Assembly: GCA_016192145.1 (NCBI GenBank) | Contig: JACPUT010000006.1 | Location: 620,001 to 684,000 of the forward strand | Direction: 5' to 3' | Source: Acidobacteriota bacterium | Lineage (GTDB): Bacteria; Acidobacteriota; Holophagae; Holophagales; Holophagaceae | Length of the DNA: 64,000 nt | In this document: positions 27,857 through 62,700 of the stretch, in pieces | How the letters are laid out: each line of letters opens with the position of its first letter | How positions within the stretch are numbered: position 1 is the stretch's first letter | Position numbers and translations under genes: made by a program | The notes under the pieces: generated by a model | What the model saw: only the letters and a program-made list of their open reading frames with translations | What the model was told of the DNA's origin: nothing | The model's database searches: none

Positions 27857-28519
27857 CTACTGCGCATCTTCCGAGGTCGCACCCTGCTCGCGAAGCGAGG
27901 CCACCAGGGCGTTCACGCGCACCTGGTGGTACTCCAGCAGCACCTGCTTCGAGACGTCGATATCCCCGGCCTCAATGGCCTGGATCAGGCGCTGGCGGGT
28001 GGGCTCGACGTTGCGCAGTCCGCTGCGGACGCCCTGCATGAGGGGGAAGAAACGCACCGTGCGCCACACCATGTTCTCGATGATGCGGAGCATCTGGGGG
28101 CGGCAGGCGGGCTGGAAAAGGATGCGATAGAACTCGATGACCGTCTCGGGGGAGCGGTTGCCCTGATCCAGTTCATCGCAGAGGGCGTAGAGCAGCTTGA
28201 AGTCATCGGGCGTGAGGCGGGGAAAGGCCATGGGGGCCAGGGCCAGCTCCAGGGCCATGCTGAGGTCCTGGATCTCCTCGATCTCTTCCACCGTGACCGG
28301 GGTGACGATGGCGCCTTTGAAGGGGAGGAAGGTCACGAGCCCTTCGGCCTCCAGACCGCGCAGCGCCTCCCGCAGGGGGACGGGGCTCACGCGCAGGGCC
28401 GTGGCGATATCGGCCTGGCGCAGGCGGCTGCCCGCCGGCAGCGTGCCCTTCAGGATCTGGGAGCGGATGGCCTCCATGATCCCGGGGATGAGGGTCTGCG
28501 TATCCAGGAGGCTGCTCAT
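27857..28519 (-). CDS. GntR-family regulator, FCD subfamily (copy 3)
   Basis: 220 residues. The N-terminal winged HTH (LRQADIATALRVSPVPLREALRGLE) is followed by an all-helical FCD ligand-binding domain with His/Asp residues able to hold a metal. FCD regulators respond to small carboxylates or sugar acids. Its start overlaps the stop of the middle copy by four bases (ATGA), so all three form one operon. It shares the linker VTFLPFKGAIVTPVTVEE with its neighbours in nearly identical form. Confidence 0.85.
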   Translation of the reverse strand: MSSLLDTQTLIPGIMEAIRSQILKGTLPAGSRLRQADIATALRVSPVPLREALRGLEAEGLVTFLPFKGAIVTPVTVEEIEEIQDLSMALELALAPMAFPRLTPDDFKLLYALCDELDQGNRSPETVIEFYRILFQPACRPQMLRIIENMVWRTVRFFPLMQGVRSGLRNVEPTRQRLIQAIEAGDIDVSKQVLLEYHQVRVNALVASLREQGATSEDAQ

Positions 28520-29157
28520 GATTGGTCCGCCATGGCCTTCAGGAGGCCGTCCCGCCGGATGAAGTGGTAGGCGCGGAAGACTTCCATGCCCCGTTGGATA
28601 TCGCCGGAGGCCATGGCGTCGACCAGTTCCAGGCGCGTGGGACGTACATCCTGGAGGGCCAGGCGGTTCGCATGGATGATGCTGAAGAGGCGCGTGCCCC
28701 GCTGGATCAAGGTGCGGACCATCTCCATCAGCACGGGCATTTCCGCCGGGCGGATGAGGATCAGGTAGAAGGCCAACGACTCTTCAAGGGTGACTTGCCC
28801 GATGTCGAGCTTATAGGCCAGTTCCCGCAGGTAGTCGAAGTCCTCGGATTTGAGGTGGGGCAGGGAGATCGGCAGCATCACTTCGAACAGGGCGAACAGG
28901 CCCGCGTAGCATTCGCTAACCTCCTTGATGGTCACGGGCGTCACGATGGTGCCCCGGTAGGGGAGGAAGGTGACGAGGCCTTCGGCCTCCAGCCGACGCA
29001 GGGCCTCGCGAAGGGGCACGGGACTCACCCCGAGGGTTCGGGCCAGCTCGGTTTGATGGATGACGGCCCCCGGGGCCAGCTTGCCCTGGACGATCTGCTC
29101 CCGCACCGCCGCGGCGATGCCAGGGATGAGCGTGCTCTGGTCGGGAGTTCGGGACAT
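28516..29157 (-). CDS. GntR-family regulator, FCD subfamily (copy 2)
   Basis: 213 residues, same layout: HTH (ELARTLGVSPVPLREALRRLE), linker LVTFLPYRGTIVTPVTIKE, FCD domain. It is a paralogue of both neighbours, most similar to the upstream copy in the DNA-binding half. Three bases separate it from the upstream stop. No metabolic target gene lies beside it. Confidence 0.85.
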   Translation of the reverse strand: MSRTPDQSTLIPGIAAAVREQIVQGKLAPGAVIHQTELARTLGVSPVPLREALRRLEAEGLVTFLPYRGTIVTPVTIKEVSECYAGLFALFEVMLPISLPHLKSEDFDYLRELAYKLDIGQVTLEESLAFYLILIRPAEMPVLMEMVRTLIQRGTRLFSIIHANRLALQDVRPTRLELVDAMASGDIQRGMEVFRAYHFIRRDGLLKAMADQS

Positions 29158-29160
29158 GGG

Positions 29161-29826
29161 TTACTTGGACCCGCTGCTGGAGGTCCGCTCCGCTTCGGTC
29201 ATCACACTCAGCAGGGCTTCGGTGTGGAGCACGAGGAAGTCCGTCAGGGCCTTCTGGGCCAGGGCCACATCCCCGGATTCGCAGGCGGCCACGACCTCCC
29301 TTCGCGTGGGGCTGATGGCGCGCAGGCTCTGGCGGGCCCGCTGGATCTGGGGGAAGAAGCGCACGGAGCGCCAGACGAGGCCCTCGATGGACTGGAGGAT
29401 GAGGGGCATGCCCGCGGGCTTGAGGAGGGTGCGATACCACTGGGCCACCATCTCGGGGGTGGTGTTTTCCCCCGTGAGTTCGTCGCAGAGCTCGTAGAGG
29501 CGCTGGAAATCCCGCTCGGTGAGGCGGGGCAGGGCGAAGGGCAGGAGGGCCACCTCCAGGGCCACGGAGGCCACGTGGATCTGGTGCACCTCCGCGGCGG
29601 TCACCGGGGTCACGATGGTGCCCCGGTAGGGAAGGAAGGTGACGAGCCCCTCGGCTTCCAGGCGGCGCAGGGCTTCCCGCAGGGGAACGGGGCTCACGCC
29701 CAGGGTCTGGGCGAGCTCCGTCTGATGGAGGACTTCGCCCTCCCTCAGGTTGCCCCGGAGGACCTGATCCCGGATGGCCTCCACGATGCCGGGGATGAGG
29801 GTCTTATTGTCGGGAAGGTGGTTCAT
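29161..29826 (-). CDS. GntR-family regulator, FCD subfamily (copy 1)
   Basis: 221 residues from ATG 29826. HTH ELAQTLGVSPVPLREALRRLE and linker LVTFLPYRGTIVTPVTAAE are nearly identical to copy 2, so the two may bind the same DNA site. The FCD halves are more divergent, pointing to different ligands or heteromers. It is the first gene of the three-regulator operon and is divergent from the lipoprotein/protease operon. Confidence 0.85.
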   Translation of the reverse strand: MNHLPDNKTLIPGIVEAIRDQVLRGNLREGEVLHQTELAQTLGVSPVPLREALRRLEAEGLVTFLPYRGTIVTPVTAAEVHQIHVASVALEVALLPFALPRLTERDFQRLYELCDELTGENTTPEMVAQWYRTLLKPAGMPLILQSIEGLVWRSVRFFPQIQRARQSLRAISPTRREVVAACESGDVALAQKALTDFLVLHTEALLSVMTEAERTSSSGSK

Positions 29827-30202
29827 GGAACTCCAGGCGGGGCGCACCCCCGGTATCGGCCCTGGGGAGGACACTCCTGAACACGCGGACGAAACGCCTG
29901 CGGACTCAAAGGCATGGGTGGATGATTAGGTTTAAAATTGATCAACTATGAATTCGCATTTTGATGCAAGGTGTGTAAATTTCATTAAATTTTTCAAAAT
30001 TCTTAACAATTGCACTGAATAAATTATTTTCCAGACCGAGGGCGTTCCCGCGGGTTTCGAATGACGGTAGCCCGCCCCCGTGCCCGGTCTTTCCACACCT
30101 CCCTTGAGCCTTTCCTGAGCCGTTCTCCGGCAACAGGGAAGGCCGATTCCATTGCCAACCTACCCCGGGGATTTCCTCCCGGGACCCTCCACGAGGAACC
30201 CC
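29827..30202. promoter_or_regulatory. AT-rich divergent promoter region, GntR trio / protease operon
   Basis: 376 bases without a gene. 29925-30035 is strikingly AT-rich for this genome and contains the palindrome TTGATCAA (29938-29945). It likely holds promoters for both the GntR operon and the lipoprotein/M4 operon, and the GntR proteins may bind here. No clear terminator or RNA element was seen. Confidence 0.45.
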
Positions 30203-30895
30203 ATGCGAACGCTCGGATGTCTCATCTCGGGGCTGATGCTCAGCCTCGCCCTGGCCTGCGGCGGCGGCTCCAACCCCGCCAAGACCCAGGCGGCCCCCGC
30301 CGCCACGGGCCTGGCCTACACCGATCCCTCCGGCACGGGCTGGCGCCTGGTGAAGGATGCCAGCTCCACCCCCACGCGCGTGGTGTTGAACCTCGTGGGG
30401 CCCACCGGCCTGATGACCCGCGGCGCGGGCTTCAACCTGCTGGCCCCCGCCTCGGTGAAGTACGGCACCTTCCATGTGGATATCCCCGGCACCACCCATT
30501 CCACCGATTTCCCCATCGCGGACACCGGCGTCTACCAGCTGCTCAACACGGATCCCCGGGATCCCTGGACGGGCGATCCCATCCCCACCCACCCCCTGGA
30601 GCCCACGCTCCTGGCGGGCGGCGTGAAGGCCGGCCACATCCTCACCGTGGGCATCTTCCAGAAGGATCGCCGGGCCACCGCCAAGGATTCCGGCGTGGCC
30701 CTCGCCCGCATCGCCCTGGAGTTCGACGCCGCGGCGGGTCTCCGGGCCGGCGACATCTTGCCCCTCACGGTGCTCAAGGCCCGGCACCAGGCCGAGGACA
30801 TCGGCCCCTTCAGCGTCTCTCCCACCGTGGCCATGGCGGAGAAGGCCCACCTCGTGGACATGACCATCGCCCTGGGGGTGCTCCGTGCGAACTGA
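30203..30895 (+). CDS. Surface lipoprotein, cohesin-like beta domain (copy 1)
   Basis: 230 residues; GAGGAA precedes ATG 30203. Signal peptide with lipobox LALAC, the lipidated Cys followed by GGGS. The single domain starts YTDPSGTGWRLVKDASSTP, has VVLNLVGP ... GAGFNLLAP, then LAGGVKAGHILTVGIFQKDRR and ALARIALEFDAAAGLRAGDILPLTVLKAR. This strand pattern and the final increment-like motif recall cohesin-type domains; the match is by eye. It precedes an M4 protease gene by 31 bases, and a paralogue precedes the second protease. It may anchor or chaperone the protease. Confidence 0.75.
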   Translation: MRTLGCLISGLMLSLALACGGGSNPAKTQAAPAATGLAYTDPSGTGWRLVKDASSTPTRVVLNLVGPTGLMTRGAGFNLLAPASVKYGTFHVDIPGTTHSTDFPIADTGVYQLLNTDPRDPWTGDPIPTHPLEPTLLAGGVKAGHILTVGIFQKDRRATAKDSGVALARIALEFDAAAGLRAGDILPLTVLKARHQAEDIGPFSVSPTVAMAEKAHLVDMTIALGVLRAN

Positions 30896-30926
30896 GCCCC
30901 CGATCCCCTTCCGTTCCGGAGCCTCC

Positions 30927-33350
30927 ATGCGCCGTTCCCGCGCGGCCCAGGCCGCCCTGCTCACCTTCCTCCTGGCCGGCGGCTCCGCCGCGGCCCCTCT
31001 GGTGGCCCAGGCCGCCAAGGCCGCAAACCCCCTCCAGGCTTCCGCCCGTGCCTTGGAACCCCATCGCGTGGCCCTGGCGAAGGATCACGCCATGGTGCTC
31101 CGATCCCAATTCGGCCTCGGTGAACCCGATGCGTTCGTGACGCGCCTGTCCTTCACCAACACCCAGGGCCAGGCCATCGTCCGCCTGGATCAGACCCACC
31201 AGGGCTTCCGCGTCTTCGGCGGCCAGGCCCTGATCCACGTGCTTCCCGATGGCACCCTGCGCACACTCACCCAGGGCGTGCAGCCCGGCGTGAAGGTGGA
31301 AGGCGAGCCCCGGCTCAGCAAGCAGGGCGCCGTCGCCATCGCCCTGCGCCACCTGGCCCCCCAGGGACCCATGACCGACGCCCCCAAGGTGGAGCGTGTG
31401 GTCTTCCCCGCCAAGTTCGCGGGCGGCCTCGCCTTCACCCAGGATCCCGTGACGGGCAAGCAGGTGCTGGATCGCAAGCGCCTCGTGCACATCCAGCCCG
31501 AGCAGCCCTTCGTGTGGGCCTACGAGGTGCGCACCCGCGTGCACAACCGGGTGGATGCCCCCTCCGAGCTCACCTACCTCATCGATGGCCGCAGCGGCGA
31601 GATCCTGCGCGTCGACAACGCCCTCCACACGGCCCGGGCCAGCGCCCCGGCCCAGGCCAAGGCGCCCTTCGCGGCCCCCGCCACCGGCAATGGCCTCGGC
31701 TTCTACCGGGGCGCCGTCACCCTCGCCACCACGGAAATGAACGACGGCACCTTCTCCCTCTGGGATAACACCCGGGGCACCGTGGGCAATCCCCAGCTCT
31801 CCGGCTTCGGGGACGATGGCTCCGGTTGGGCTCCCACGGGCCTGCAGGTCTGGTACGCCAGCCACGACGCCTCCGGCCAGATGGATTGGAACATGTGGCT
31901 CTTCCAGGGCAACGCCGCGAACTCGTGGGGCGATGGCCAGGTGTGGAACCGCGTGCCCGGCACGGAGAACAGCGCCAACGGGCAGACGGCCGCCGTGGAC
32001 GCCCTCGCGGCCATGACCACGACCTGGGATTTCTACGCCAACGTCTTCGGCCGCAACGGCATGGATGGCAATGACACCGCCGTGTTCGCGCAGGTGCACA
32101 TGAACGGCGGCTACATGGAGTGGTACACGGACAACGCCTCCTGGTCCTCCTGGGCCCAGGGCATGTCCCTCGGCCAGGGCAGCTACCCCGGCAATCCCAA
32201 GGGGCTCCTGGAGCTGACGGATCTGGACATCATCGCCCACGAGATGGCCCATGGCGTGACCGACGCCACGGCGAGGTTCGTCAATGCCGCCGGACTGGAA
32301 GAGGCGGGCATGGCCGAGGGCACCTCCGACATCCTCGCGCAGGGCGTCCGGGCCTATGCCACGCGCGGGGCCGGCGATCCCGGGAATGCCATTCCCGCCA
32401 CGGGGGCCGATTGGAAGATCGGCGAGAACGCGGGCCATGGCACGCCCATCCGGTGGATGGACAAACCCAGCCGGGATGGCCGCAGCGCGGACGCCTGGTA
32501 CGACGGCCTCCGCTACCTGGATGGCCACTTCTCCTGCGGCCCCCTCAACCGCATGTTCTACCTGCTGTCCGAAGGCGCCTCCGCCACCCAAGGGGCCACG
32601 AACCACAGCCCCTACTATCCGGCCGGATTCACGGGCATCGGCCTCGATGCCGCGAGCCGCATCTGGTTCAAAGCCGTCACCGAGAACATCGTCAGCGACG
32701 GCACGGGCAGCCTCACCTTCGAGACGGCCCGGGAAGCCGCCCTCCTGGCCGCCACGGATCTCTACGGGGCCGGCCACGCCAACGTGCTCGCCGTGGAGAA
32801 GGCCTTCTCCGCCATCAACGTGGGCCTCGCCAATGGCCAGGCTCCCCGCGCCCAGGTGGCCTTCAAGGATTGGCGCGAAGGCGACTACGTGGAGATCAGC
32901 CACTTCAGCGGCTGGTCCAACAAGGAGTTCTTCCCCCAGGGTGAGACGGTGCGTCCCCGGGTGAAGGTGGAAAACACCGCCAACACCCAGGTCGCCTGGA
33001 CCATTGGCGGGCCCTCCATGTACAACGGGGCCGAGAGCATGGTCGGCAAGGGCGGTCGCATCAACGCCGATGGCAGCTGGACCACCCCGATGGAGAAGGG
33101 ATGGTGGGCCATCACGGCCACCAGCCAGGCCGACGCCACGCAGTTCGCCGAGGGCCGCGCCTTCACCATCAACCTCGATGCCGATCAGGATCTGGAACAG
33201 GACGCCGTGGACATGGGTACCCTCGCTTTCTCCTGGTACCTCAGCAACGGCCTGAGCCTCGCCCACTCCGTCTTCAACGCCCCATGGGTGGATGACGGCG
33301 ACGTGGGCGCCTTCGTCGACGCCGTGAAGAACTCCTGGCTGCCCAAGTGA
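30927..33350 (+). CDS. Secreted M4 (thermolysin-family) metalloprotease with dockerin-like C-terminal loop (1)
   Basis: 807 residues; GGAG lies before ATG 30927. Signal peptide, FTP/PepSY-type propeptide (about 40-240), then the M4 catalytic domain. Zinc site: H438-E439-x-x-H442 and probably E464 (GMAEGTSD), two residues further apart than in thermolysin. The C-terminal region is beta-rich; residues 751-762 (DADQDLEQDAVD) form a perfect 1-3-5-9-12 calcium loop like one half of a dockerin. The protein ends NSWLPK. Extracellular protein digestion is the likely role, with the end loop perhaps docking to the lipoprotein encoded upstream. Confidence 0.87.
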   Translation: MRRSRAAQAALLTFLLAGGSAAAPLVAQAAKAANPLQASARALEPHRVALAKDHAMVLRSQFGLGEPDAFVTRLSFTNTQGQAIVRLDQTHQGFRVFGGQALIHVLPDGTLRTLTQGVQPGVKVEGEPRLSKQGAVAIALRHLAPQGPMTDAPKVERVVFPAKFAGGLAFTQDPVTGKQVLDRKRLVHIQPEQPFVWAYEVRTRVHNRVDAPSELTYLIDGRSGEILRVDNALHTARASAPAQAKAPFAAPATGNGLGFYRGAVTLATTEMNDGTFSLWDNTRGTVGNPQLSGFGDDGSGWAPTGLQVWYASHDASGQMDWNMWLFQGNAANSWGDGQVWNRVPGTENSANGQTAAVDALAAMTTTWDFYANVFGRNGMDGNDTAVFAQVHMNGGYMEWYTDNASWSSWAQGMSLGQGSYPGNPKGLLELTDLDIIAHEMAHGVTDATARFVNAAGLEEAGMAEGTSDILAQGVRAYATRGAGDPGNAIPATGADWKIGENAGHGTPIRWMDKPSRDGRSADAWYDGLRYLDGHFSCGPLNRMFYLLSEGASATQGATNHSPYYPAGFTGIGLDAASRIWFKAVTENIVSDGTGSLTFETAREAALLAATDLYGAGHANVLAVEKAFSAINVGLANGQAPRAQVAFKDWREGDYVEISHFSGWSNKEFFPQGETVRPRVKVENTANTQVAWTIGGPSMYNGAESMVGKGGRINADGSWTTPMEKGWWAITATSQADATQFAEGRAFTINLDADQDLEQDAVDMGTLAFSWYLSNGLSLAHSVFNAPWVDDGDVGAFVDAVKNSWLPK

Positions 33351-33358
33351 GGATCCCC

Positions 33359-33994
33359 ATGATGAACCGCACCCCCACCCTCGCCCTCGCGGGCCTCCTC
33401 CTCTCCTTCGGCCTCGCCTGCGGCGGCGGCTCCTCCGCGCCCGCCCCCCAGGCGGCGGCTCCGGCCGCGAGCCTGAGCTACACCGATCCCGCCGGCTCCA
33501 GCTGGCGGCTGCTGAAGGACGCCTCCTCCACCCCCACCCGCCTGGTGTTGAACCTCGTCGGCCCCGCGGGCACCCTCACCCGCGGCGTGGGCTTCAACTT
33601 GAAGGCTCCGGAAGGCCTCAAGTTCGACGCCTTCCCCGGCGGAATGCTCATCCAGGATGCCGGGGTCTACCAGCTCCTCAGCAACGCCCTGGATCCCAAT
33701 GAGCCCGTGGCCCTCGTGGGCGGCGTGAAGACCGGCAACCTGCTCTCCGCGGGCATCTACCAGAAGGGGCGCGATCAGGGCGCCAAGGACAGTGGCGCGG
33801 CCCTCTGCCGCATCGCCCTGGCGCTGGATTCCGCCCACCGCCCCCTGGCCGGCACCACCTTCACGCTCTCCGTGATCAAAGCCAGGATCATCCCCGAGGA
33901 CATCGGCTCCCCCACCGATGAGCCCTTCACCCTCGACCGGAAGCTGCGGATGACGGATATCTCCGTCGCCGTCGGCACCGTTACCGCCCGCTGA
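33359..33994 (+). CDS. Surface lipoprotein, cohesin-like beta domain (copy 2)
   Basis: 211 residues from ATG 33359 (33362 also possible). Lipobox FGLAC, then GGGSSAP. The domain is a paralogue of 30203-30895: YTDPAGSSWRLLKDASSTP, LVLNLVGPAGTLTRGVGFN, GVYQLL, LVGGVKTGNLLSAGIYQKG and FTLSVIKARIIPEDIG. It sits 8 bases after the first protease and 14 before the second, so the cassette order is lipoprotein-protease-lipoprotein-protease in one operon. Confidence 0.75.
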   Translation: MMNRTPTLALAGLLLSFGLACGGGSSAPAPQAAAPAASLSYTDPAGSSWRLLKDASSTPTRLVLNLVGPAGTLTRGVGFNLKAPEGLKFDAFPGGMLIQDAGVYQLLSNALDPNEPVALVGGVKTGNLLSAGIYQKGRDQGAKDSGAALCRIALALDSAHRPLAGTTFTLSVIKARIIPEDIGSPTDEPFTLDRKLRMTDISVAVGTVTAR

Positions 33995-34008
33995 CCTCAG
34001 GAGCTTCC

Positions 34009-36453
34009 ATGTCCCGCATGCACTCGCGCCGCACCCATGGCCCGCTGTCGGCCCTGGCCCTTGCCCTCGTCCTGGGCGCCGGCTCCCTCAGCGCCGGCAA
34101 CCCCCAGCTTCCCCCCACCCAGCTCAAGGCCCTCAAGGCCCAGCAGCCCGCCCGCGTGGCCCAGGCCCAGCAACGGCTCCTGGCGCAGCGGGCCCAACTC
34201 GGGCTCGACGACCGCTCCGATTTCGTTCCGCTCCATCCCTTCACCAATGAGCAGGGCCGCACCGTCACCCGCTTCAAGCAGACCTTCGCGGGTCAGCGGG
34301 TATGGGGTGCCAGCGCCGTGGTCCACACCGAGGCCGAAGGCACCTCCCGCATCCTGCCCCAGGGCGTGAAGGCGGGGATCAACCTGGAAGGCGCCGCGCC
34401 CCGCCTGGGCGCCGAGGAAGCCAAGGCCCTGGCCCTACGCAACCTCGCCCCCAAGGCCGGCCTCGCGGCCGCCCAGGTGAAGGTGGAGCAAGTCGTCTTC
34501 CCCACCCGCTTCACGGGCGGGCTCGCCACGAAGCGCGACGCCAAGCGGGGCGTCACCGTGGTCGACCCCGCCATGAGCGTGTGGGCCAAGGCCCCCACGG
34601 CGCCCTACGTGTGGGCCTACGAGGTGCGCACCCTCCTGGCCAACCGGCAGGATGGGCATCAGGAGATCACCTACATCGTCGATGGCGACACCGGCGCCAT
34701 CCTGCGCAAGTGGAACGCCATCCAGCCCCTCGAGGCACTGGATGACACCCCGGCCCAGGGCACGGGCCAGAGCTACTTCCGCGGCACCGTGCCCCTCTCC
34801 ACCGCCCAGGCCGGGGATGGAACCTTCTCCCTGGTGGCCAAGGATCGCGGCACGCTGCCCCAGCCCTACTTCGAGTCCCAGGGCTTCACGCAGATGGGCC
34901 TCACCACCTGCTACGGAACCGTGGACTTCAACGTCGGGGCCCTGGGCTTCGAACCCTACATCGGCCATGCCACGAACACCTGGGGCGATGGCACGCTCCT
35001 TCCATTGGCCTTCGATTCCTCCGTGGGTGCCCTCCTCGATTTGAACGGGGATGGCAGCCTCGGCTGGCTCAGGGGCGCATTGACCCCGACCGGCGAAACC
35101 AACGCCGTGGATGCCCACTACGGGCTCTCCACCACCTGGGATTTCTACACGAACGTCTTCGGCCGCGATGGCATCGATGGCCAAGGCACCTCCACCTTCG
35201 CCATCGTGCATCCCATCGAATTGAGCTGGTGGTACGGCATCGTGCCCATGATCGACAACGCCTACTGGGCCCCCTGGTACTTCGGGATGGTGTTCGGCGA
35301 GGGCGGATCCCCGGCCTTCGGTGACAACGGGGTCTTCACGGCCACGACGGAACTCGATATCACGGGCCATGAGCTCACCCATGGCGTCACCCAGGAGACG
35401 GCGGGCCTGATCTACGAGGGGCAGTCCGGCGGTCTCAACGAGGCCACCTCCGACATCCTCGGCAAGATGGTGCAGGCCTACGCCGATGGCGGCGCCACCG
35501 GCACGGCCATCCCCGACTTCACCCCGGGCGATCTGGCGGCCTGGGAGGTGGGCCACAACGCGGTGGTGGGCCATCCCCTGCGCGCCATGTACAAGCCCAG
35601 CGTCGATGGCATCAGCGCCAACGAGTGGTACGACGGCATCGATGGCCTGGATGTGCACTACAGCAGCGGGCCCGTGAACCGCTTCTACTACTTCCTCGCC
35701 ATGGGCGCCTCCGCCAACACCGCCAGCGAGAGCCACAGCGTCTACCTCCCCGGGGGCATGACCGGCCTCGGCAATGAGAAGGCGGCCCGCATCTGGTACA
35801 AGGCCCTCACCGAGTACCTGGCTTCCGATGCGGATTTCCTGGCGGCGCGGGAGGCCTCCATCACGGCGGCCCTGGATCTCTACACGCAATCCGAGGCGGA
35901 CGCGGTCAGGCGGGCCTGGGCGGCCGTGAACGTGGGCGAAGCCCCGGGGCAGGCCCAGCGGGTGCGGATCCGCTTCCCCGAGACCCACCCCTTGGGTTCC
36001 TTCATCGGGGATCGGGCCGTGCCCGAGGGCATCCTCGGGCGCACCCAGATCCTGCCCATCGCCACCACCGTGCGCCTCCAGACCACCGTGGAACACACGA
36101 CGGATACCGGGGTCATGCTCTCCTTCGATGATCCCCGGTTCGGAAGCCAGGCCGGCACGATCGGCACCGACGGCACCTGGACCACCCCCAACTTCACCTT
36201 CTACATGGATCTCCTGCCCATGGTGGCCCGCTCCCACGCGGACCCCACGCAATACGCCAAGGCCAACATGCTCCTGGCGAACCTGGATGGGGACATGGAT
36301 TCGGAGCAGGATGCCCTCGACCTGGGCATGACCGCCATGGTGTGGGGCTGCCCCAACGCGCCCCAGCAGGCGGCGCGCACGGCTGGCATGGGTGACGATT
36401 GGGATTTCGCCTTCTTCACCGAGGCTTTCCACAACGCCTGGCTGCCCCGCTAG
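34009..36453 (+). CDS. Secreted M4 metalloprotease with dockerin-like C-terminal loop (2)
   Basis: 814 residues; AGGAG precedes ATG 34009. Signal peptide (to about 29), FTP-type propeptide, M4 domain with canonical zinc ligands H454-ELT-H458 and E478 (GGLNEATSD), followed by the active-site His region (DVHYSSGPVNRFYY). A beta-rich C-terminal region contains DGDMDSEQDALD (760-771), a perfect dockerin-type calcium loop, and the protein ends NAWLPR, as the first protease does. Catalytic parts are closer to thermolysin than those of copy 1. Secreted protease. Confidence 0.88.
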   Translation: MSRMHSRRTHGPLSALALALVLGAGSLSAGNPQLPPTQLKALKAQQPARVAQAQQRLLAQRAQLGLDDRSDFVPLHPFTNEQGRTVTRFKQTFAGQRVWGASAVVHTEAEGTSRILPQGVKAGINLEGAAPRLGAEEAKALALRNLAPKAGLAAAQVKVEQVVFPTRFTGGLATKRDAKRGVTVVDPAMSVWAKAPTAPYVWAYEVRTLLANRQDGHQEITYIVDGDTGAILRKWNAIQPLEALDDTPAQGTGQSYFRGTVPLSTAQAGDGTFSLVAKDRGTLPQPYFESQGFTQMGLTTCYGTVDFNVGALGFEPYIGHATNTWGDGTLLPLAFDSSVGALLDLNGDGSLGWLRGALTPTGETNAVDAHYGLSTTWDFYTNVFGRDGIDGQGTSTFAIVHPIELSWWYGIVPMIDNAYWAPWYFGMVFGEGGSPAFGDNGVFTATTELDITGHELTHGVTQETAGLIYEGQSGGLNEATSDILGKMVQAYADGGATGTAIPDFTPGDLAAWEVGHNAVVGHPLRAMYKPSVDGISANEWYDGIDGLDVHYSSGPVNRFYYFLAMGASANTASESHSVYLPGGMTGLGNEKAARIWYKALTEYLASDADFLAAREASITAALDLYTQSEADAVRRAWAAVNVGEAPGQAQRVRIRFPETHPLGSFIGDRAVPEGILGRTQILPIATTVRLQTTVEHTTDTGVMLSFDDPRFGSQAGTIGTDGTWTTPNFTFYMDLLPMVARSHADPTQYAKANMLLANLDGDMDSEQDALDLGMTAMVWGCPNAPQQAARTAGMGDDWDFAFFTEAFHNAWLPR

Positions 36454-36514
36454 GCCCTTCGGAGTGAGGTCCCGCTTCCCACCTCGGGAGGCGGGCCTTG
36501 CCTTTGGATCCACC

Positions 36515-37222
36515 ATGCATCGAACCCATGACCAGAGTTTCAGGGTTTTCCTCCACCTGGGCCGCATGCAGGCCCGCAGGGAATCCATGGCGGTCCCCTC
36601 GGATGAGGCCGAAGTGGCTCCTACCGAGGCCCTGGATCTCATGGCCCGGAGCCTCGACCGGGCCGGCGAGGCCCGCACCCGGAAGGACTGGCTCGGATTC
36701 GAGACGGAGCTCCTCCGCTTGGCGAGCGAGACGTTTCGGGCCCTGGAAGCCCACCAGCGGCGCATCGGGTGCGGGACCTTCCACGCCCGAACCCGATGGT
36801 GCTGGGAGTCGCTCTCCAACCCCGGGGCCGCGGGCTCCTGGCCCACCCGGGCCCAGGCCGTGGCCCAGGCGGAATCGGAGCTGCCCCCCGGGGATTCCTA
36901 CCGGGTGGGCCGCCTGGCGCCTTCGCCCCTGCACCGATACGTCCCCAAGACCGAATGGCTGCTGGGCCAGATGAGGGACCGCGCCCGCCTCGAGCACGCC
37001 GTTCCCGATCTGGAATGGCCCCAGCTGGATTTCCAACAGCACCAGGAACTCCAGGGCTACCTGGAGGGGCTCATGGTGGCCTTCCTGGAGCGGGAGGGAC
37101 TCACGCTGGCCCTGGCCCAGTGGGTGGACATGGAGGTGCATCAAGTTTCGCGAAGTTCCCCGGCGGCGGTTACATCAACGACCTGGGCGTCTTCAAGCTC
37201 ACCAACAAGAACGGCGCCATGA
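36515..37222 (+). CDS. Hypothetical protein, probably truncated at its 3' end
   Basis: Up to 235 residues. ATG 36515 follows a Pro-free intergenic hairpin but has only a weak ribosome site. The text reads as a helical, charged soluble protein (MARSLDRAGEARTRKDW, RRIGCGTFHARTRWCWES) of no known family. From about 37143 the frame runs over a fragment homologous, in another frame, to the lipoproteins upstream, so the last ~25 residues are probably not original and the gene was cut by a rearrangement. Confidence 0.5.
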   Translation: MHRTHDQSFRVFLHLGRMQARRESMAVPSDEAEVAPTEALDLMARSLDRAGEARTRKDWLGFETELLRLASETFRALEAHQRRIGCGTFHARTRWCWESLSNPGAAGSWPTRAQAVAQAESELPPGDSYRVGRLAPSPLHRYVPKTEWLLGQMRDRARLEHAVPDLEWPQLDFQQHQELQGYLEGLMVAFLEREGLTLALAQWVDMEVHQVSRSSPAAVTSTTWASSSSPTRTAP

Positions 37223-37567
37223 ACATCTACGGGGAACTCGCCACCAAGGATGTCACCGCGCTCGTCGGCGGACTGAAGGAAGGGGGCCGCGTCCTCAGCG
37301 TGGGGGCCTTCCAGAAGGACCGCCGCTGGCCCTCCCAGGCCCTGGATCGGGCCCTCTTCCAGATCGCCATCGATCTCGACGCCACCCAGGCCGCGGGCCT
37401 TGCCGCCGGTACGGAGATCCCCCTGACCTTCCTCAGGGCCCGGAGCATCCCCGACTACATCGGCGACAACCCCCAAGGATCCCAACGCGAATCGCGCGAC
37501 CTGGGCTTACGACTACCGCATCGACGACGTGCAGGTGGCCGTGGGTAAGCTGGCGGTGGGGAATTAG
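37147..37567 (+). pseudogene. Broken third copy of the cohesin-like lipoprotein
   Basis: Reads FAKFPGGGYINDLGVFKL ... ALVGGLKEGGRVLSVGAFQKDRR ... LFQIAIDLDATQAAGLAAGT ... FLRARSIPDYIGDN, a match to the C-terminal two thirds of the two lipoproteins. The signal peptide, lipobox and first strands are missing. Near 37473, in a run of five C, the frame shifts: the conserved ending continues in another frame as DYRIDDVQVAVGKLAVGN with stop at 37565-37567. Truncated plus frameshifted. Confidence 0.75.
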
Positions 37568-57810: not shown

Positions 57811-57884
57811 TCCCGTTTCGGTCAATGGGAGGCCGCCGCGCTCTGAACGCGGAGACCGAGGTTCGATTCCTCGAGCGGGAGCCA
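57811..57884 (+). tRNA. tRNA-Gln (CUG)
   Basis: Full cloverleaf: acceptor 57811-57817/874-880, D stem GGTC/GGCC, anticodon stem CCGCG/CGCGG with loop CTCTGAA, T stem CGAGG/CCTCG with TTCGATT. Discriminator G, encoded CCA at 882-884, and a second CCA follows directly. Confidence 0.93.
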
Positions 57885-57892
57885 CCATCAGG

Positions 57893-57967
57893 TGGGGGGT
57901 TGGCCAATTGGTAGGCTCGCGGCCTTTGAAGCCGCCTGTGAGGGTTCGAGTCCCTCCCCCCTAGCCA
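57893..57967 (+). tRNA. tRNA-Gln (UUG)
   Basis: Full cloverleaf; acceptor TGGGGGG/CCCCCTA, anticodon stem GCGGC/GCCGC with loop CTTTGAA, T arm GAGGG-TTCGAGT-CCCTC, encoded CCA. It begins 8 bases after the first tRNA's CCA. Confidence 0.93.
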
Positions 57968-57974
57968 CACCCAA

Positions 57975-58063
57975 GGAAGCGTGCCGGAACGGTAAACGGG
58001 CCTGATTGCTAATCAGGGGCCCCATTAAAGGGCGTACAGGTTCGAGCCCTGTCGCTTCCGCCA
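57975..58063 (+). tRNA. tRNA-Ser (GCU)
   Basis: Class II tRNA; acceptor GGAAGCG/CGCTTCC, anticodon stem CCTGA/TCAGG with loop TTGCTAA, long variable arm (58018-58035), T arm ACAGG-TTCGAGC-CCTGT, encoded CCA. Confidence 0.93.
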
Positions 58064-58077
58064 AAGCTTTGTCGATC

Positions 58078-58171
58078 ATTGAAAATTGCATAATGGATAA
58101 ATGGCAAATACGCATGTTTAAGAGCATGCGTGAGTAGAAATAGACCTCTCGTGAGGTCGTTCGACGAGAGC
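58078..58171 (+). ncRNA. AT-rich tRNA-like or structured RNA element
   Basis: Much richer in A/T than its neighbours. ACGCATG (58110-58116) pairs with CATGCGT (58125-58131) around loop TTTAAGAG, which resembles a Leu(UAA) anticodon loop. The text before it (TGGATAAATGGCAAATACG) resembles a Leu D-arm. GACCTC-TCGT-GAGGTC (58143-58158) is a perfect hairpin, followed by a GTTCGA T-loop-like word. No acceptor stem or CCA could be placed. It may be a degenerate phage-type tRNA-Leu or another small RNA. Confidence 0.4.
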
Positions 58172-58238
58172 GCGCCATCTTCAACCCCGGCAGCCCATCA
58201 GGGCACCGGTCATGCGAGGAACGCGCCCCGTCATCTAA

Positions 58239-58316
58239 GGTGCATTGGGGGAGTCTGGATTCCCCGCCGGCCTGTCAAGTCGGAGAGCAGGGGTTCAAAT
58301 CCCCTATGCACCGCCA
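58239..58316 (+). tRNA. tRNA-Asp (GUC)
   Basis: Acceptor GGTGCAT/ATGCACC, anticodon stem CCGGC/GTCGG with loop CTGTCAA, T arm AGGGG-TTCAAAT-CCCCT, encoded CCA. Complete fold. Confidence 0.93.
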
Positions 58317-58321
58317 ATCAC

Positions 58322-58388
58322 GGTCCCATGGGCAAATCGGCTAAGCCCCGGGTGGAGATTCCGGGTTCAAGCCCCGGTGGGACTGCCA
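58322..58388 (+). tRNA. tRNA-like gene lacking an anticodon arm
   Basis: Acceptor (GGTCCCA/TGGGACT), a D-arm-like part (GGC...GCC), T arm (CCGGG-TTCAAGC-CCCGG) and encoded CCA are intact. Only 13 bases (58348-58360) lie between D arm and T stem, where a normal tRNA has about 22. No anticodon stem-loop fits, so isotype cannot be given. Confidence 0.6.
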
Positions 58389-58390
58389 AC

Positions 58391-58467
58391 GCGAGCGTGG
58401 CGGAAGCGGCATACGCACCAGCCCGAGGAGCTGGGTCATGAGAGTTCGAATCTCTCCGTTCGCACCA
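58391..58467 (+). tRNA. tRNA-Leu (GAG) with short variable loop and C33
   Basis: Acceptor GCGAGCG/CGTTCGC, Leu-like D-arm text (TGGCGGAAGCGGCATACGC), anticodon stem CCAGC/GCTGG, loop CCGAGGA, T arm GAGAG-TTCGAAT-CTCTC, encoded CCA. The variable loop is 5 bases (GTCAT) instead of the long class II arm, and position 33 is C, not T. Confidence 0.82.
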
Positions 58468-58470
58468 ATT

Positions 58471-58558
58471 GCCGGGAATGCTCCCACGGTGGGACAGCAG
58501 CCTGTAAACCTGCAGAGCCATGAGCTCACAGAAGGTTCGACTCCTTCTCCCGGCACCA
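58471..58558 (+). tRNA. tRNA-Tyr (GUA)
   Basis: Class II; acceptor GCCGGGA/TCCCGGC, loop CTGTAAA, long variable arm with stem GAGC/GCTC, T arm GAAGG-TTCGACT-CCTTC, encoded CCA. One C-C mismatch closes the anticodon loop. Confidence 0.9.
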
Positions 58559-58561
58559 TTA

Positions 58562-58644
58562 GGGCCCCACAGCCAAGGGCAGGGTAGCGGCAGCGGTGGC
58601 CGTGACGCGATCGAGCGAGGTCGTCCCTGTTCCTGGGCCCACCA
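58562..58644 (+). tRNA. Degenerate tRNA-like gene (Pro-CGG-like)
   Basis: Acceptor ends pair 6 of 7 (GGGCCCC/TGGGCCC) with encoded CCA. GCGGC/GCCGT with loop AGCGGTG is anticodon-like (CGG, but G33). No regular T arm: only a TTCC word remains, and GACG/CGTC pairs across an inserted segment. Probably decayed or recombined. Confidence 0.5.
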
Positions 58645-58647
58645 ATC

Positions 58648-58722
58648 CGGAGTCTGGGCCAGTGGCTGGCCACCTGTTTTGGGAACAGGGCCAGGTAGGT
58701 TCGAATCCTACGACTCCGACCA
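58648..58722 (+). tRNA. tRNA-Pro (UGG)
   Basis: Acceptor CGGAGTC/GACTCCG, anticodon stem CCTGT/ACAGG with loop TTTGGGA, T arm GTAGG-TTCGAAT-CCTAC, encoded CCA. Complete fold. Confidence 0.93.
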
Positions 58723-58728
58723 ATCCCT

Positions 58729-58802
58729 GCGGCCATGGTCTAGCGGGAGGACAGCAGGTCGCCAGCCTGCAAGCACGGGTTCAATCCCCGTTGGCCGCTC
58801 CA
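58729..58802 (+). tRNA. tRNA-Gly (GCC) with C33
   Basis: Acceptor GCGGCCA/TGGCCGC, D stem GTCT/GGAC, anticodon stem GCAGG/CCTGC, loop TCGCCAG, T arm ACGGG-TTCAATC-CCCGT, discriminator T, encoded CCA. Position 33 is C. Confidence 0.87.
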
Positions 58803-58805
58803 CTC

Positions 58806-58881
58806 GCGTCTCAAGCTGCTTTGGAATAGCACCTGCCTTTTAAGCAGGGGGTACTGGGTTCGAATCCCAGGAGACGCACCA
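58806..58881 (+). tRNA. tRNA-Lys (UUU)
   Basis: Acceptor GCGTCTC/GAGACGC, anticodon stem CCTGC/GCAGG with loop CTTTTAA, T arm CTGGG-TTCGAAT-CCCAG, encoded CCA. Complete fold. Confidence 0.93.
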
Positions 58882-58970
58882 CACCGTTGCAGGCGAGCCG
58901 GATGCTCACCAGGGCCTCATAAGCCCAGGTTGCCCAGTTCAACTCGTGGAGCGTATCAAAGCAATCGGTG
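58882..58970 (+). ncRNA. tRNA-like RNA with bulged 9-bp closing stem and Met-type CAU loop
   Basis: CACCG-TTGC (58882-58890) pairs with GCAA-T-CGGTG (58961-58970), leaving one bulged T. Inside are a D-arm-like hairpin GAGC-CGGAT-GCTC, an arm GGGC/GCCC with loop CTCATAA (Met anticodon CAU) and a poor T-arm (CCCAG-TTCAACT-CGTGG). No CCA follows. It is either a decayed tRNA-Met or a tRNA mimic of the kind seen in Ro60-bound Y RNAs. Confidence 0.45.
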
Positions 58971-58977
58971 GGGCCGC

Positions 58978-59077
58978 GCTGGGATGGCGGCCGAGCCCGA
59001 CAAGGCGGCCGACCGAGGCGGTGCGGGTCCACCGTTGAGGGAGGCCAACACAGCCGGGCGACGGCCGCCGTCCCAGC
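58978..59077 (+). ncRNA. Long structured hairpin RNA element in the array
   Basis: 58978-58993 pairs with 59062-59077 over 16 bp (one G-T), and the stem goes on with GCCCG (58995-58999) / CGGGC (59055-59059). An inner hairpin CGGTG/CACCG is present. There is no reading frame across it. Flanked by tRNA genes on the same strand. Confidence 0.6.
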
Positions 59078-59085
59078 CCTAAAGG

Positions 59086-59185
59086 GTTGAGCCAAAAGGG
59101 CCCTCATCCCGCGTCACGCCGCTCGGAGGATGAACCCGCATCCCCCTTCGCGCCCTTCCTTGGATGCGGGCCCTTTTGACTCAAC
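59086..59185 (+). ncRNA. Three-way-junction RNA element in the array
   Basis: An 18-base outer stem (59086-59103 with 59168-59185, one mismatch or G-T pair) encloses two hairpins: TCATCC/GGATGA (59104-59109/59127-59132) and GCATCC/GGATGC (59138-59143/59162-59167). The compact branch structure has no tRNA consensus. It lies next to the preceding hairpin element, so 58882-59185 is one block of non-tRNA structured RNA. Confidence 0.6.
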
Positions 59186-59237
59186 GCGGCTCCCGCCGAT
59201 TGCTTTGAGGCGCTCCATGGGCCTGCCACCAATTCCC

Positions 59238-59311
59238 GGGCTGTTAGTTCAAGGGAAGAACACCTGCCTTGCAAGCAGGGGATGGCGGTTCGATTCCGCC
59301 ACGGTCCACCA
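59238..59311 (+). tRNA. tRNA-Ala (UGC)
   Basis: Acceptor GGGCTGT/ACGGTCC, anticodon stem CCTGC/GCAGG with loop CTTGCAA, T arm GGCGG-TTCGATT-CCGCC, encoded CCA. The acceptor has the two G-T pairs usual for Ala-type recognition. Confidence 0.92.
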
Positions 59312-59316
59312 TCCAC

Positions 59317-59410
59317 GGAAGAGTGAGCGGAATGGCATCGCGCTCGCTTGGAAAGCGAGTTCACCGGGTGCACCCCCGGTGTGCAGGTTCGAATCCTGTC
59401 TCTTCCGCCA
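59317..59410 (+). tRNA. tRNA-Ser (GGA)
   Basis: Class II; acceptor GGAAGAG/CTCTTCC, anticodon stem CTCGC/GCGAG with loop TTGGAAA, long variable arm (CACCGGG/CCCCGGTG), T arm GCAGG-TTCGAAT-CCTGT, encoded CCA. Confidence 0.93.
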
Positions 59411-59412
59411 AT

Positions 59413-59551
59413 CGCCCCATAGCTCAATGGGAAAGCACGCGGCCGATAACCGCGGGACGGAGGTTCCCTCCATCGATCGCGGCCCTGCCCCGCAGGCCCG
59501 CTCCCCGTCGCTTCCGCTCCGGGAGATGGAGCCTCCCTCCTGGGGCGACCA
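59413..59551 (+). tRNA. tRNA-Ile (GAU) with a ~65-base insertion in the T-loop, C33
   Basis: Acceptor CGCCCCA (59413-59419) pairs with TGGGGCG (59541-59547), encoded CCA. D arm GCTC/AAGC region, anticodon stem CGCGG/CCGCG, loop CCGATAA with C33. T stem GGAGG (59459-59463) has its partner CCTCC at 59536-59540, leaving a 72-base loop instead of 7. Within it CTCCATC (59468-59474) pairs with GATGGAG (59525-59531). A local alternative is GGAGG-TTC-CCTCC. The insert looks like an intron or extra arm. Confidence 0.7.
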
Positions 59552-59554
59552 CAC

Positions 59555-59628
59555 GGGTCTATAGCTCAACGGGAGAGCACTGCCATGGCATGGCAGGGAT
59601 CAGGGTTCGATTCCCTGTAGATCCACCA
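59555..59628 (+). tRNA. tRNA-Ala (GGC)
   Basis: Acceptor GGGTCTA/TAGATCC, D stem GCTC/GAGC, anticodon stem CTGCC/GGCAG with loop ATGGCAT, T arm CAGGG-TTCGATT-CCCTG, encoded CCA. Loop position 38 T is unusual. Confidence 0.9.
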
Positions 59629-59631
59629 TCA

Positions 59632-59701
59632 CCCCCGCCCATGGAGGGACGCCGGCCTTCTAAGCCAGCCCTTGAGCGTTCGACTCGCTCCGGGGGGACA
59701 T
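59632..59701 (+). tRNA. Degenerate tRNA-Arg (UCU)
   Basis: T arm GAGCG-TTCGACT-CGCTC and anticodon arm with loop CTTCTAA are good. The acceptor pairs only six bases, the D arm is shortened (CCC-ATGGA-GGG), one anticodon-stem pair is mismatched, and the 3' end is CAT rather than CCA. Confidence 0.55.
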
Positions 59702-59704
59702 TTC

Positions 59705-59781
59705 GCTGCCATGGCCAAACGGCATAAGGCACCTCGCTACGAACGAGGAGATTGGAGGTTGGAGTCCTCCTGGCAGCACCA
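59705..59781 (+). tRNA. tRNA-Arg (ACG)
   Basis: Acceptor GCTGCCA/TGGCAGC, anticodon stem CCTCG/CGAGG with loop CTACGAA (A34 would need inosine editing by TadA), T stem GGAGG/CCTCC, encoded CCA. The T-loop is TTGGAGT: the invariant C56 is G. Confidence 0.85.
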
Positions 59782-59785
59782 CTCC

Positions 59786-59874
59786 GTCGCAGGAGCCCCA
59801 CGGCCGAGGCATCCGCCTGTTAAGCGGACGATGCGAAAGCACTCCATAGGGTTCGACTCCCTACTGCGGCGCCA
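59786..59874 (+). tRNA. tRNA-Asn (GUU) with an 18-base variable arm
   Basis: Acceptor GTCGCAG/CTGCGGC, anticodon stem TCCGC/GCGGA with loop CTGTTAA, T arm TAGGG-TTCGACT-CCCTA, encoded CCA. The variable region (59829-59846) has 18 bases with hairpin TGC-GAAA-GCA, whereas normal Asn tRNAs have about 5. Confidence 0.82.
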
Positions 59875-59902
59875 CTCGGGATCCATCCGGATCCCCCAGA
59901 CG

Positions 59903-59977
59903 GTGACATTAGCTCAGTGGCAGAGCATCGCGCTGTGAACGCGACCACAGAGGGTTCGATTCCCCTATGTCACACCA
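59903..59977 (+). tRNA. tRNA-His (GUG) without the usual G-1:C73 pair
   Basis: Acceptor GTGACAT/ATGTCAC, D stem GCTC/GAGC, anticodon stem TCGCG/CGCGA with loop CTGTGAA, T arm with one A-C mismatch, encoded CCA. The discriminator is A, so G-1:C73, the His identity pair in most bacteria, cannot form. Confidence 0.85.
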
Positions 59978-59980
59978 CCC

Positions 59981-60059
59981 GGGACAGAAGCTGAAACATG
60001 GATGCAGCGCCGGTTTGAAACACCGGAGGATGTCGGTTCGAGTCCGACCTGTCCCACCA
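59981..60059 (+). tRNA. tRNA-Phe (GAA)
   Basis: Acceptor GGGACAG/CTGTCCC, D stem GCTG/CAGC with a long D-loop, anticodon stem CCGGT/ACCGG with loop TTGAAAC, T arm GTCGG-TTCGAGT-CCGAC, encoded CCA. Confidence 0.88.
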
Positions 60060-60089
60060 TTCCGCAGCAGTAACGAACAGGGGTTCATC

Positions 60090-60163
60090 GCTCGCAACCA
60101 ATGGGACCAGGTGGCCGTGCGTGCAAACCTACGGCGGCGGGTTCGAATCCCGCTATGCGCATA
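60090..60163 (+). tRNA. Degenerate tRNA-like gene (Cys-GCA-like)
   Basis: T arm GCGGG-TTCGAAT-CCCGC is intact and GTGCAAA stands in an anticodon-loop position. The anticodon stem is reduced to CCGT/ACGG with an internal loop, the acceptor pairs 5 of 7, and the 3' end reads ATAC, not CCA. Confidence 0.45.
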
Positions 60164-60200
60164 CCCAACCCCCTGACGGACTCTCTCTGCGGATTCATCT

Positions 60201-60276
60201 GTCCTCGTAGCTCAATGGGATGAGCACACCCCTCCGAAGGGTGAGGATGTCGGTTCGAGCCCGGCCCGGGACACCA
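60201..60276 (+). tRNA. tRNA-Arg (CCG)
   Basis: Acceptor GTCCTCG/CCGGGAC (one mismatch), D stem GCTC/GAGC, anticodon stem CACCC/GGGTG with loop CTCCGAA, T arm GTCGG-TTCGAGC-CCGGC, encoded CCA. Confidence 0.9.
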
Positions 60277-60299
60277 TTCACGGCAGCAAGGCATTGCGG

Positions 60300-60372
60300 T
60301 ACTTCGTAGCTCAGTGGATAGAGCCTCAGGCGAATAGCCTGATGGTCGCTGGTTCGACCCCAGCCGCTCCCG
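60300..60372 (+). tRNA. Degenerate tRNA-like gene with GCAA-capped 3' end
   Basis: D arm GCTC-AGTGGATA-GAGC and T arm GCTGG-TTCGACC-CCAGC are normal. The anticodon stem TCAGG/CCTGA holds loop CGAATAG (G33; AAU would be Ile). The 5' acceptor does not pair with the 3' side; instead the 3' end folds as CCC-GCAA-GGG (60369-60378), and no CCA is encoded. Confidence 0.5.
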
Positions 60373-60430
60373 CAAGGGAATTCCGCACGCCAACTCCCTC
60401 CGTGATCCGCTTCCCGCGGCAGTAAGGCCC

Positions 60431-60514
60431 AGGGTTTCATCGCCAAACGGTATAGGACCTTGTCGCAAGACAAGCGGGTGCAAGCCCGGTGTGGGTTCGA
60501 ATCCCACGGCCCCG
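60431..60514 (+). tRNA. Degenerate class II tRNA-like gene with GCAA-capped 3' end
   Basis: T arm GTGGG-TTCGAAT-CCCAC and a variable arm CGGG-TGCAAG-CCCG are clear. The anticodon stem CTTGT/ACAAG has a loop of six (CGCAAG), so no anticodon can be assigned. The acceptor is weak. The 3' side folds as CCCC-GCAA-GGGG (60510-60521) where CCA should be. Confidence 0.45.
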
Positions 60515-60570
60515 CAAGGGGCACTCCCTGGCCAATTCCCTCCGCGGTTCCATTTCTTGTCGCAGCAAGG

Positions 60571-60629
60571 CAAGGGTTCCTTCGCCTGATAAGCGCGTGG
60601 TCGCTGGTTCGATTCCAGTCCTCCGTCCA
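60571..60629 (+). tRNA. tRNA-Ile (GAU)-like gene lacking a D arm
   Basis: The anticodon loop CTGATAA in a short CGC/GCG stem, variable TGGTC, T arm GCTGG-TTCGATT-CCAGT and a 3' CCA are seen. Nothing fits a D arm or a paired 5' acceptor: the leader GGGTTCCTTCGCC runs straight into the anticodon arm. Confidence 0.45.
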
Positions 60630-60635
60630 TCGATC

Positions 60636-60672
60636 GGGAGGTAGCTCAGTGGTAGAGCACGTTTCATACCCT
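60636..60672 (+). tRNA. 5' half of a tRNA-Met (CAU)-like gene
   Basis: CGGGAGG-TA-GCTC-AGTGGTA-GAGC and the loop TTCATAC are the 5' half of a tRNA up to the anticodon. The 3' half is missing; after 60672 the sequence changes to protein-coding-like text. Confidence 0.5.
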
Positions 60673-60761
60673 CGCCGATTTCCTCGACAAGACCCCTTCA
60701 CCCGACCTCGACGTCAGCTCGACAGAGGTCCGCAACTCCCTCGCGCAGCAGGGCAGCACTT
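60664..60761 (+). pseudogene. C-terminal remnant of a gene upstream of the Ro60 gene
   Basis: In one frame the sequence reads HTLADFLDKTPSPDLDV then SSTEVRNSLAQQGST and stops at 60759-60761, inside the Ro60 ribosome-binding region. The DVSSTEVRNSL text resembles the C-terminal end of NadD/NadM-type nucleotidylyltransferases (ISSTxVR). There is no start: the 5' part is replaced by the tRNA-Met half. Confidence 0.45.
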
Positions 60762-60776
60762 GAAAGGAGGCCCTCC

Positions 60777-62234: not shown

Positions 62235-62236
62235 CC

Positions 62237-62500
62237 AGGCTGTCCCGAAACCCCCGTGTGCCGCGCTGGGAGCGCCGGGCGGTGCCTCGCAAGGAAGGCG
62301 AGATGAGCCTAGTGGTTCTACGCGATTCGAGCCTGACGAAGCGGGGTGCCGCCCGCCGCCCCAGCCCGAAGGGACGTCGCCAGGCGGGCGCTTCGCGGCG
62401 TCCGTGCCCTTGAACGATGAACCACATCGCCCTGCGGGCACGTCCTTGCGGAGCGTCCCGCCTGACGACGTCGCGGCACGCGGGGGTTTCGGGACAGCCT
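62237..62500 (+). ncRNA. 264-base structured RNA closed by a 29-bp stem, candidate Ro60-bound RNA
   Basis: 62237-62265 and 62472-62500 pair over 29 bp (one G-T). Inside: arm 1 CGGGCGG-TGCC (276-286) / GGTG-CCGCCCG (345-355) with hairpin CTCGC/GCGAG; arm 2 GGACGTCGC (372-380) / GCGGCGTCC (395-403); arm 3 CGTGCCC (403-409) / GGGCACG (436-442). Arms 2 and 3 share one base. No reading frame. Bacterial Y RNAs have a long end-closing stem, so position and shape fit, but the stem is longer than usual and no Y-RNA sequence signature is identified. Confidence 0.65.
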
Positions 62501-62541
62501 GGCCCACCCCTGGGGGCGGGTCCACCCGCCCCCCCCTTCAT

Positions 62542-62618
62542 CCGAGCATGGCGCAGCCTGGGAGCGCGCTGGTCTGGGGGACCAGAGGTCGCGGGTTCAA
62601 GTCCCGCTGCTCGGACCA
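62542..62618 (+). tRNA. tRNA-Pro (GGG)
   Basis: Acceptor CCGAGCA/TGCTCGG, anticodon stem CTGGT/ACCAG with loop CTGGGGG, T arm GCGGG-TTCAAGT-CCCGC, encoded CCA. Complete fold. Confidence 0.93.
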
Positions 62619-62621
62619 ATC

Positions 62622-62696: not shown

Positions 62697-62700
62697 CCTT

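Follow-up and report, generated by a model that had tools for sequence, protein, structure and literature searches.

Cohesin-fold lipoproteins encoded beside dockerin-tailed proteins in Holophagaceae, and a likely role in tethering two M4 proteases to the cell surface

In a Holophagaceae bacterium (phylum Acidobacteriota), two lipoprotein genes, LP1 and LP2, alternate with two genes for secreted thermolysin-type (M4) proteases, M4a and M4b. They lie within a stretch of 64,000 nucleotides (contig JACPUT010000006.1, positions 620,001 to 684,000, hereafter the window). We consider it likely that LP1 and LP2 hold the co-expressed M4a and M4b at the cell surface through a calcium-dependent cohesin–dockerin contact, and that this locus is a local case of a family-wide system. 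More broadly, one-to-one cohesin–dockerin clips are probably how Holophagaceae keep individual enzymes attached to the cell.

The four genes lie on the same (+) strand within 30203–36453, no two neighbors being more than about 31 nt apart, and every ATG start chosen has a plausible ribosome-binding site. They form an apparent four-gene operon in the order LP1-M4a-LP2-M4b, and a terminator-like hairpin immediately after M4b is consistent with such a single unit (Table 1). As the first-pass annotation had stated, each protease is preceded by a paralogous lipoprotein: LP1 and LP2 are 52–53% identical, and M4a and M4b are full-length paralogues with 40% identity. The longest open reading frame of M4a opens at a GTG (30885); an alternative ATG (30927) has GGAG upstream and is the likely start because of this better ribosome-binding site.

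Divergent from the operon, three tandem paralogous GntR/FCD-type regulators occupy 27857–29874 on the minus strand. A locus of the same genus (L039, 1659–3765) keeps three minus-strand genes in the equivalent position, at least two of them similar in sequence, which suggests that the regulators control the LP–M4 operon. On the other side of the operon, the remnant of a third cohesin-lipoprotein gene is fused to an unrelated open reading frame without a Pfam match (36524–37219 region). The window also holds a dense cluster of 20 tRNA genes (57811–62778, + strand).

Table 1 Features of the LP1-M4a-LP2-M4b locus, in window coordinates
Feature	Position	Strand	Remarks
Sigma-70-like site upstream of LP1	30003..30030	+	consensus match only; 1 found vs 0.5 expected; chance could give it
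LP1 lipoprotein, one cohesin-fold domain	30203..30895	+	ATG start; lipobox Cys codon 30257; fold inferred from paralogue LP2
M4a, secreted M4 (thermolysin-type) protease	30927..33350	+	FTP/PepSY propeptide, catalytic domain, beta domain, dockerin-like tail
M4a dockerin-like C-terminal tail	33162..33347	+	first loop intact; second repeat degenerate (WVDDGDVGAFVDAVKNSW)
M4a calcium loop DADQDLEQDAVD, first dockerin-like repeat	33177..33212	+	
LP2 lipoprotein, one cohesin-fold domain	33359..33994	+	ATG start; lipobox Cys codon 33419; model pLDDT 94.8
M4b, secreted M4 protease, dockerin-like tail	34009..36453	+	
M4b dockerin-like C-terminal tail	36271..36450	+	
M4b calcium loop DGDMDSEQDALD	36286..36321	+	
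Terminator-like hairpin just 3' of M4b	36471..36495	+	consensus match only; shuffles give more
Third cohesin-lipoprotein gene, remnant	37144..37467 (or to 37567)	+	5' part, start and signal missing; frameshift near 3' end

LP1 and LP2 each carry a PS51257-type lipobox with glycine at position +2. Across the lipoprotein family, such a lipobox is present in 80 of 88 frames, and position +2 is glycine or serine in 78; judged from the sequence, the +2 glycine of LP1 and LP2 is compatible with sorting to the outer membrane. Once mature, the lipoproteins consist of one domain each, and their median length is close to 180 residues. Searches of the family against Pfam, NCBIfam and PDB profiles returned no significant match, and the cohesin family PF00963 matched none of 74 lipoproteins and nothing in the window genome. 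We did not count this silence of the sequence libraries against a cohesin assignment because the fold search contradicted it. Specifically, the AlphaFold model of LP2 (74 sequences) reached a mean pLDDT of 94.8 and a pTM of 0.88, and when it was compared to the PDB with Foldseek, ranks 1–34 were all cohesin or cohesin-like entries. With VIA-align, the best 50 PDB entries were cohesins throughout (Z 8.5–11.5, rmsd 2.3–3.4), and a structure search with a second lipoprotein, from another genome (L043), again gave cohesins. The likeness to cohesins that had been proposed for these lipoproteins is borne out by this result, and, as modeled, the family adopts the cohesin jelly-roll beta sandwich. Since PF00963 does not match, we file the lipoproteins as a cohesin-fold family and not as members of PF00963.

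Next, we evaluated the distribution and gene neighborhood of the family. A profile built from four lipoproteins detected it in 68 of 77 Holophagaceae genomes and in 46 of the 48 good ones. Across a sample of 396 Acidobacteriota genomes, matches were almost confined to Holophagaceae, with two strong exceptions and one weak one; at both strong exceptions, a dockerin gene adjoins the lipoprotein gene. In the 77 Holophagaceae genomes, 78 dockerins exceeded the PF00404 cut-off, and for 67 of these a lipoprotein gene of the family lay no more than 2.5 kb away in the same orientation (median gap 48 nt), while chance would give about 0.0014 pairings per dockerin, i.e., about 0.1 in all. The dockerin gene preceded the lipoprotein gene in 66 of the 67 pairs. 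Counted from the lipoprotein side with a local dockerin model, 67 of 88 frames had a dockerin in their neighborhood and another 19 adjoined a loop-bearing M4 protease; the two frames with neither are L091, at a contig edge, and L095, a real exception.

The window genome itself has one Pfam dockerin, and only 18 nt separate it from the remaining intact lipoprotein gene of that genome (L040, G000:C7:222652-236230). There, a 1206-residue Sortilin/Ig/P-domain protein with a two-repeat dockerin end is directly followed by a 193-residue cohesin lipoprotein. Both this protein and the canonical partners in relatives have the attributes of a type I dockerin, i.e., a PF00404 match, two loops and a C-terminal position. 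Pfam cohesins over the cut-off are absent from 75 of the 77 Holophagaceae genomes, which makes the lipoproteins the obvious dockerin partners. The only such cohesins (G042:C243 and G046:C403) are parts of large proteins that carry a Pfam dockerin in the same chain.

The cargo is diverse. Scanning 45 cargo proteins yielded 29 with Sortilin-Vps10, 15 with BNR, 6 with P_proprotein, 4 with peptidase C10 and 4 with peptidase M4 domains, alongside peptidase C1 and S53-prodomain; S8 and NPCBM proteins also occur as cargo. The dockerin tail is the common denominator of this otherwise varied set. This bears on the idea that the lipoproteins are generic jelly-roll surface adhesins, of the collagen-adhesin or pilin-like kind, which sit beside dockerins through operon inheritance only. 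Collagen adhesins do appear in the Foldseek list of LP2, lower down at ranks 35 and 41, but cohesins top both the Foldseek and the VIA-align lists, and we regard the idea as highly improbable. Inheritance of one operon is no sufficient explanation for a pairing that is seen again and again with cargo of unrelated types, with either gene first, and also in two genomes that are not Holophagaceae; hitchhiking within an operon was rejected.

By their FTP, Peptidase_M4 and M4_C domains and HExxH zinc site, M4a and M4b belong to peptidase family M4. Each has one exact D-x-D-x-D-x3-D-x2-D calcium loop, at residues 751–762 of M4a counted from ATG 30927 (765–776 from the GTG) and 760–771 of M4b. These are the positions given by the first-pass annotation, whose numbering of M4a is accounted for by the ATG start. 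A chance motif could be ruled out: the strict D.D.D...D..D pattern occurred 17 times in 289,063 residues of neighborhood proteins vs 0.08 expected from composition, and all 17 matches fell in the last 85 residues of their proteins. Among 16 aligned M4-type tails, loop positions D24, D28, D32 and D35 were invariant and D26 was conserved in at least 90%. Aligned with hhalign to 44 canonical local dockerins, these 16 tails matched across 59 columns that span both repeats (probability 93.3, E 2.6e-7). The cohesin/dockerin-like pairing suggested earlier is thus supported on both sides, the lipoprotein family being encoded beside dockerin genes and the protease tails aligning with those same dockerins.

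The tails had been likened to half a dockerin, which comes close: the second repeat is still there, with its D-D-x-D helix start kept and most of its loop lost. With one loop intact and one degenerate, the window tails fall short of the two loops of a type I dockerin, and neither the PF00404/Pfam search nor PDB sequence profiles recognized them as dockerins. On sequence grounds they are best called reduced, dockerin-derived modules. PDB profile matches of the M4 tails to dynein light chains and to the EndoA dockerin (E about 0.01) were not used. The endings NSWLPK and NAWLPR, also pointed out beforehand, do match each other in M4a and M4b, but the tails of relatives outside this genome end otherwise and we rejected the motif as a signature. 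Intermediate states are found at other loci: the M4 proteases of L079 and L097 keep most of the second loop, and at L110 the gene right after a lipoprotein encodes an M4 protease whose dockerin is a regular one with two loops.

In the tree, M4a and M4b fall into separate, well-supported clades, and as each clade includes relatives' copies, the duplication behind the LP–M4 quartet is, from these phylogenies, an old one. LP1 copies likewise cluster with those of relatives, LP2 copies group weakly, and the quartet is kept in several genomes. The order cargo, then lipoprotein, is also seen at M4 loci L043, L044, L063, L072, L079, L090 and L097, while in the window the lipoprotein comes before the protease. 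One genome (G068) encodes about a dozen cohesin lipoproteins, many of them beside M4 proteases (L042, L044, L063, L072, L079); the cassette has thus expanded there.

Given the adjacency of lipoprotein and protease, the lipoproteins might instead act in the periplasm, where a protein of cohesin fold could inhibit, chaperone or fold the neighboring protease, and not be surface anchors. Some secreted lipases are served by lipid-anchored foldases, and a lipoprotein that adjoins a protease, and precedes each one in the M4 quartets, would fit a role of this type. We nonetheless find it unlikely. Most partners are non-proteases (sortilin/BNR and P-domain proteins) that have the dockerin tail in common, and the M4 proteases already possess FTP/PepSY propeptides. 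Moreover, the window genome encodes five further M4 proteases in one cluster (L136, G000:C1:375500-392500; at C1 378–390 kb), which has no cohesin lipoproteins, and the calcium loop is absent from all five, indicating that, here at least, possession of the tail tracks the lipoproteins and not membership in the M4 family.

A possible tail–lipoprotein interface was examined at L043, which, like L079 and L097, has a dockerin-tailed M4 gene and a lipoprotein gene in one frame with a single stop codon between them. The L043 pair was modeled as one chain of 394 residues (M4 beta domain and tail, signal peptide as linker, lipoprotein), with the intervening TAA read as Gln as a prediction device, no read-through being claimed. 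In mixed alignments, dockerin-only rows were misaligned onto the lipoprotein, and a smaller alignment was taken instead. AlphaFold returned a pTM of 0.74 for this chain (one model, without PAE, coordinates or negative control), compared to about 0.5 by our own estimate for two halves floating independently, which hints that tail and lipoprotein may take up a defined arrangement. The second repeat was modeled at low confidence (pLDDT 46–63), and structure searches with the chain matched its cohesin part only and were uninformative on the tail. A fold other than cohesin and no predicted interface had been named in advance as the outcome that would count against the pairing; the fold obtained was that of cohesins, and this related pair gave a weakly positive result.

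The same model bears on whether the window tails still function. They might be vestigial, with the loop stabilizing the C-terminus only and the lipoproteins binding another dockerin in trans (e.g., the L040 protein) or nothing. The second loop is indeed lost, Pfam detects no dockerin in these tails, and a canonical dockerin exists elsewhere in the same genome. Set against this are the near-perfect conservation of the loop in the 16 tails, maintained through an old cassette duplication, the retention of the quartet in several genomes, the restriction of the loop, among the sequences examined, to M4 proteases that adjoin lipoproteins, and the positive single-chain model. We judge vestigial tails to be improbable.

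Under the tethering reading, LP1 and LP2 would be lipid-anchored receptors, each with one cohesin-fold domain on a tether rich in Gly, Ser and Pro, placed in the outer membrane and facing outward. After export, M4a and M4b would be captured there, the cohesin gripping their loop-bearing tails in a binding expected to depend on calcium. LP1 would serve M4a and LP2 would serve M4b, an assignment made less certain by the cargo-first order in most of the family. Degradative or processing enzymes may in this way be kept on the cell. As to the export route, secretin matches are present in the window genome, none of them over the curated cut-off of the GspD family. A more far-reaching proposal, which we advance only tentatively, is that of a lineage-specific docking system in a Gram-negative phylum with one cohesin per cargo, in which the M4 dockerin has been reduced to a single, still-binding loop and the duplicated LP1–M4a and LP2–M4b pairs have become mutually specific within the operon.

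The best reading is that the LP/M4 system resembles non-cellulosomal cohesin–dockerin systems in its workings and is to be grouped with them by fold; modules of such systems have been reviewed (Peer et al. 2009, as cited in PMC9012536). Non-cellulosomal cohesins of Archaeoglobus fulgidus (2xdh) and of a Clostridium perfringens glycosidase (2vo8, 2jh2) share the fold, and all three structures are among the matches of LP2. Like the proteins described here, they are single, dockerin-linked modules outside cellulosomes; unlike them, the Acidobacteriota cohesin is a stand-alone, PF00963-negative lipoprotein encoded almost always beside its presumed cargo. The cellulosome (complexes 1ohz, 2b59, 2y3n) similarly joins enzyme to cohesin by a C-terminal calcium-loop module, and the LP fold matches both type I and type II cohesins. 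However, each anchor here has one cohesin, the cargo consists of proteases and sortilin/BNR proteins, and the attachment is by lipid instead of an SLH domain or sortase; with no scaffoldin and lipoproteins of one domain each, a cellulosome was rejected. ScaG of Ruminococcus flavefaciens (4n2o, 4wkz), an autonomous single-cohesin protein, is also among the structural matches, but it comes from a Gram-positive bacterium, where it is a cellulosome component, and has low sequence identity to the lipoproteins (9–12%).

Neighboring cohesin and dockerin genes of non-cellulosomal type, with a proposed extracellular role, feature in accounts of ANME archaea and of sulfate reducers that live in syntrophy (PMC9012536, PMC10553843), the latter source mentioning adjacent genes for the sulfate reducers. 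The relevant passages of these two papers propose cell–cell adhesion and do not describe lipoprotein–protease cassettes. From the thermolysin family (thermolysin 5a3y, pseudolysin), with which they share catalytic and propeptide domains, M4a and M4b differ by an extra C-terminal beta domain and the dockerin-like tail. Searches of the open-access literature for dockerin together with Holophaga, Geothrix or Acidobacteria found no prior description for Acidobacteriota beyond passing mentions, e.g., in a CAZyme tally (PMC5900883).

Overall, the more than 60 loci constitute a resource of naturally paired cohesin–dockerin genes outside cellulosomes, and the lipoproteins a cohesin family that escapes the sequence libraries. 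The single-loop M4 tails offer a direct test of the minimal dockerin that can still bind, while from the duplicated cassettes one could learn how new pair specificity arises. For a Gram-negative bacterium, clips of this kind would be a simple route to keeping secreted proteases on its surface.
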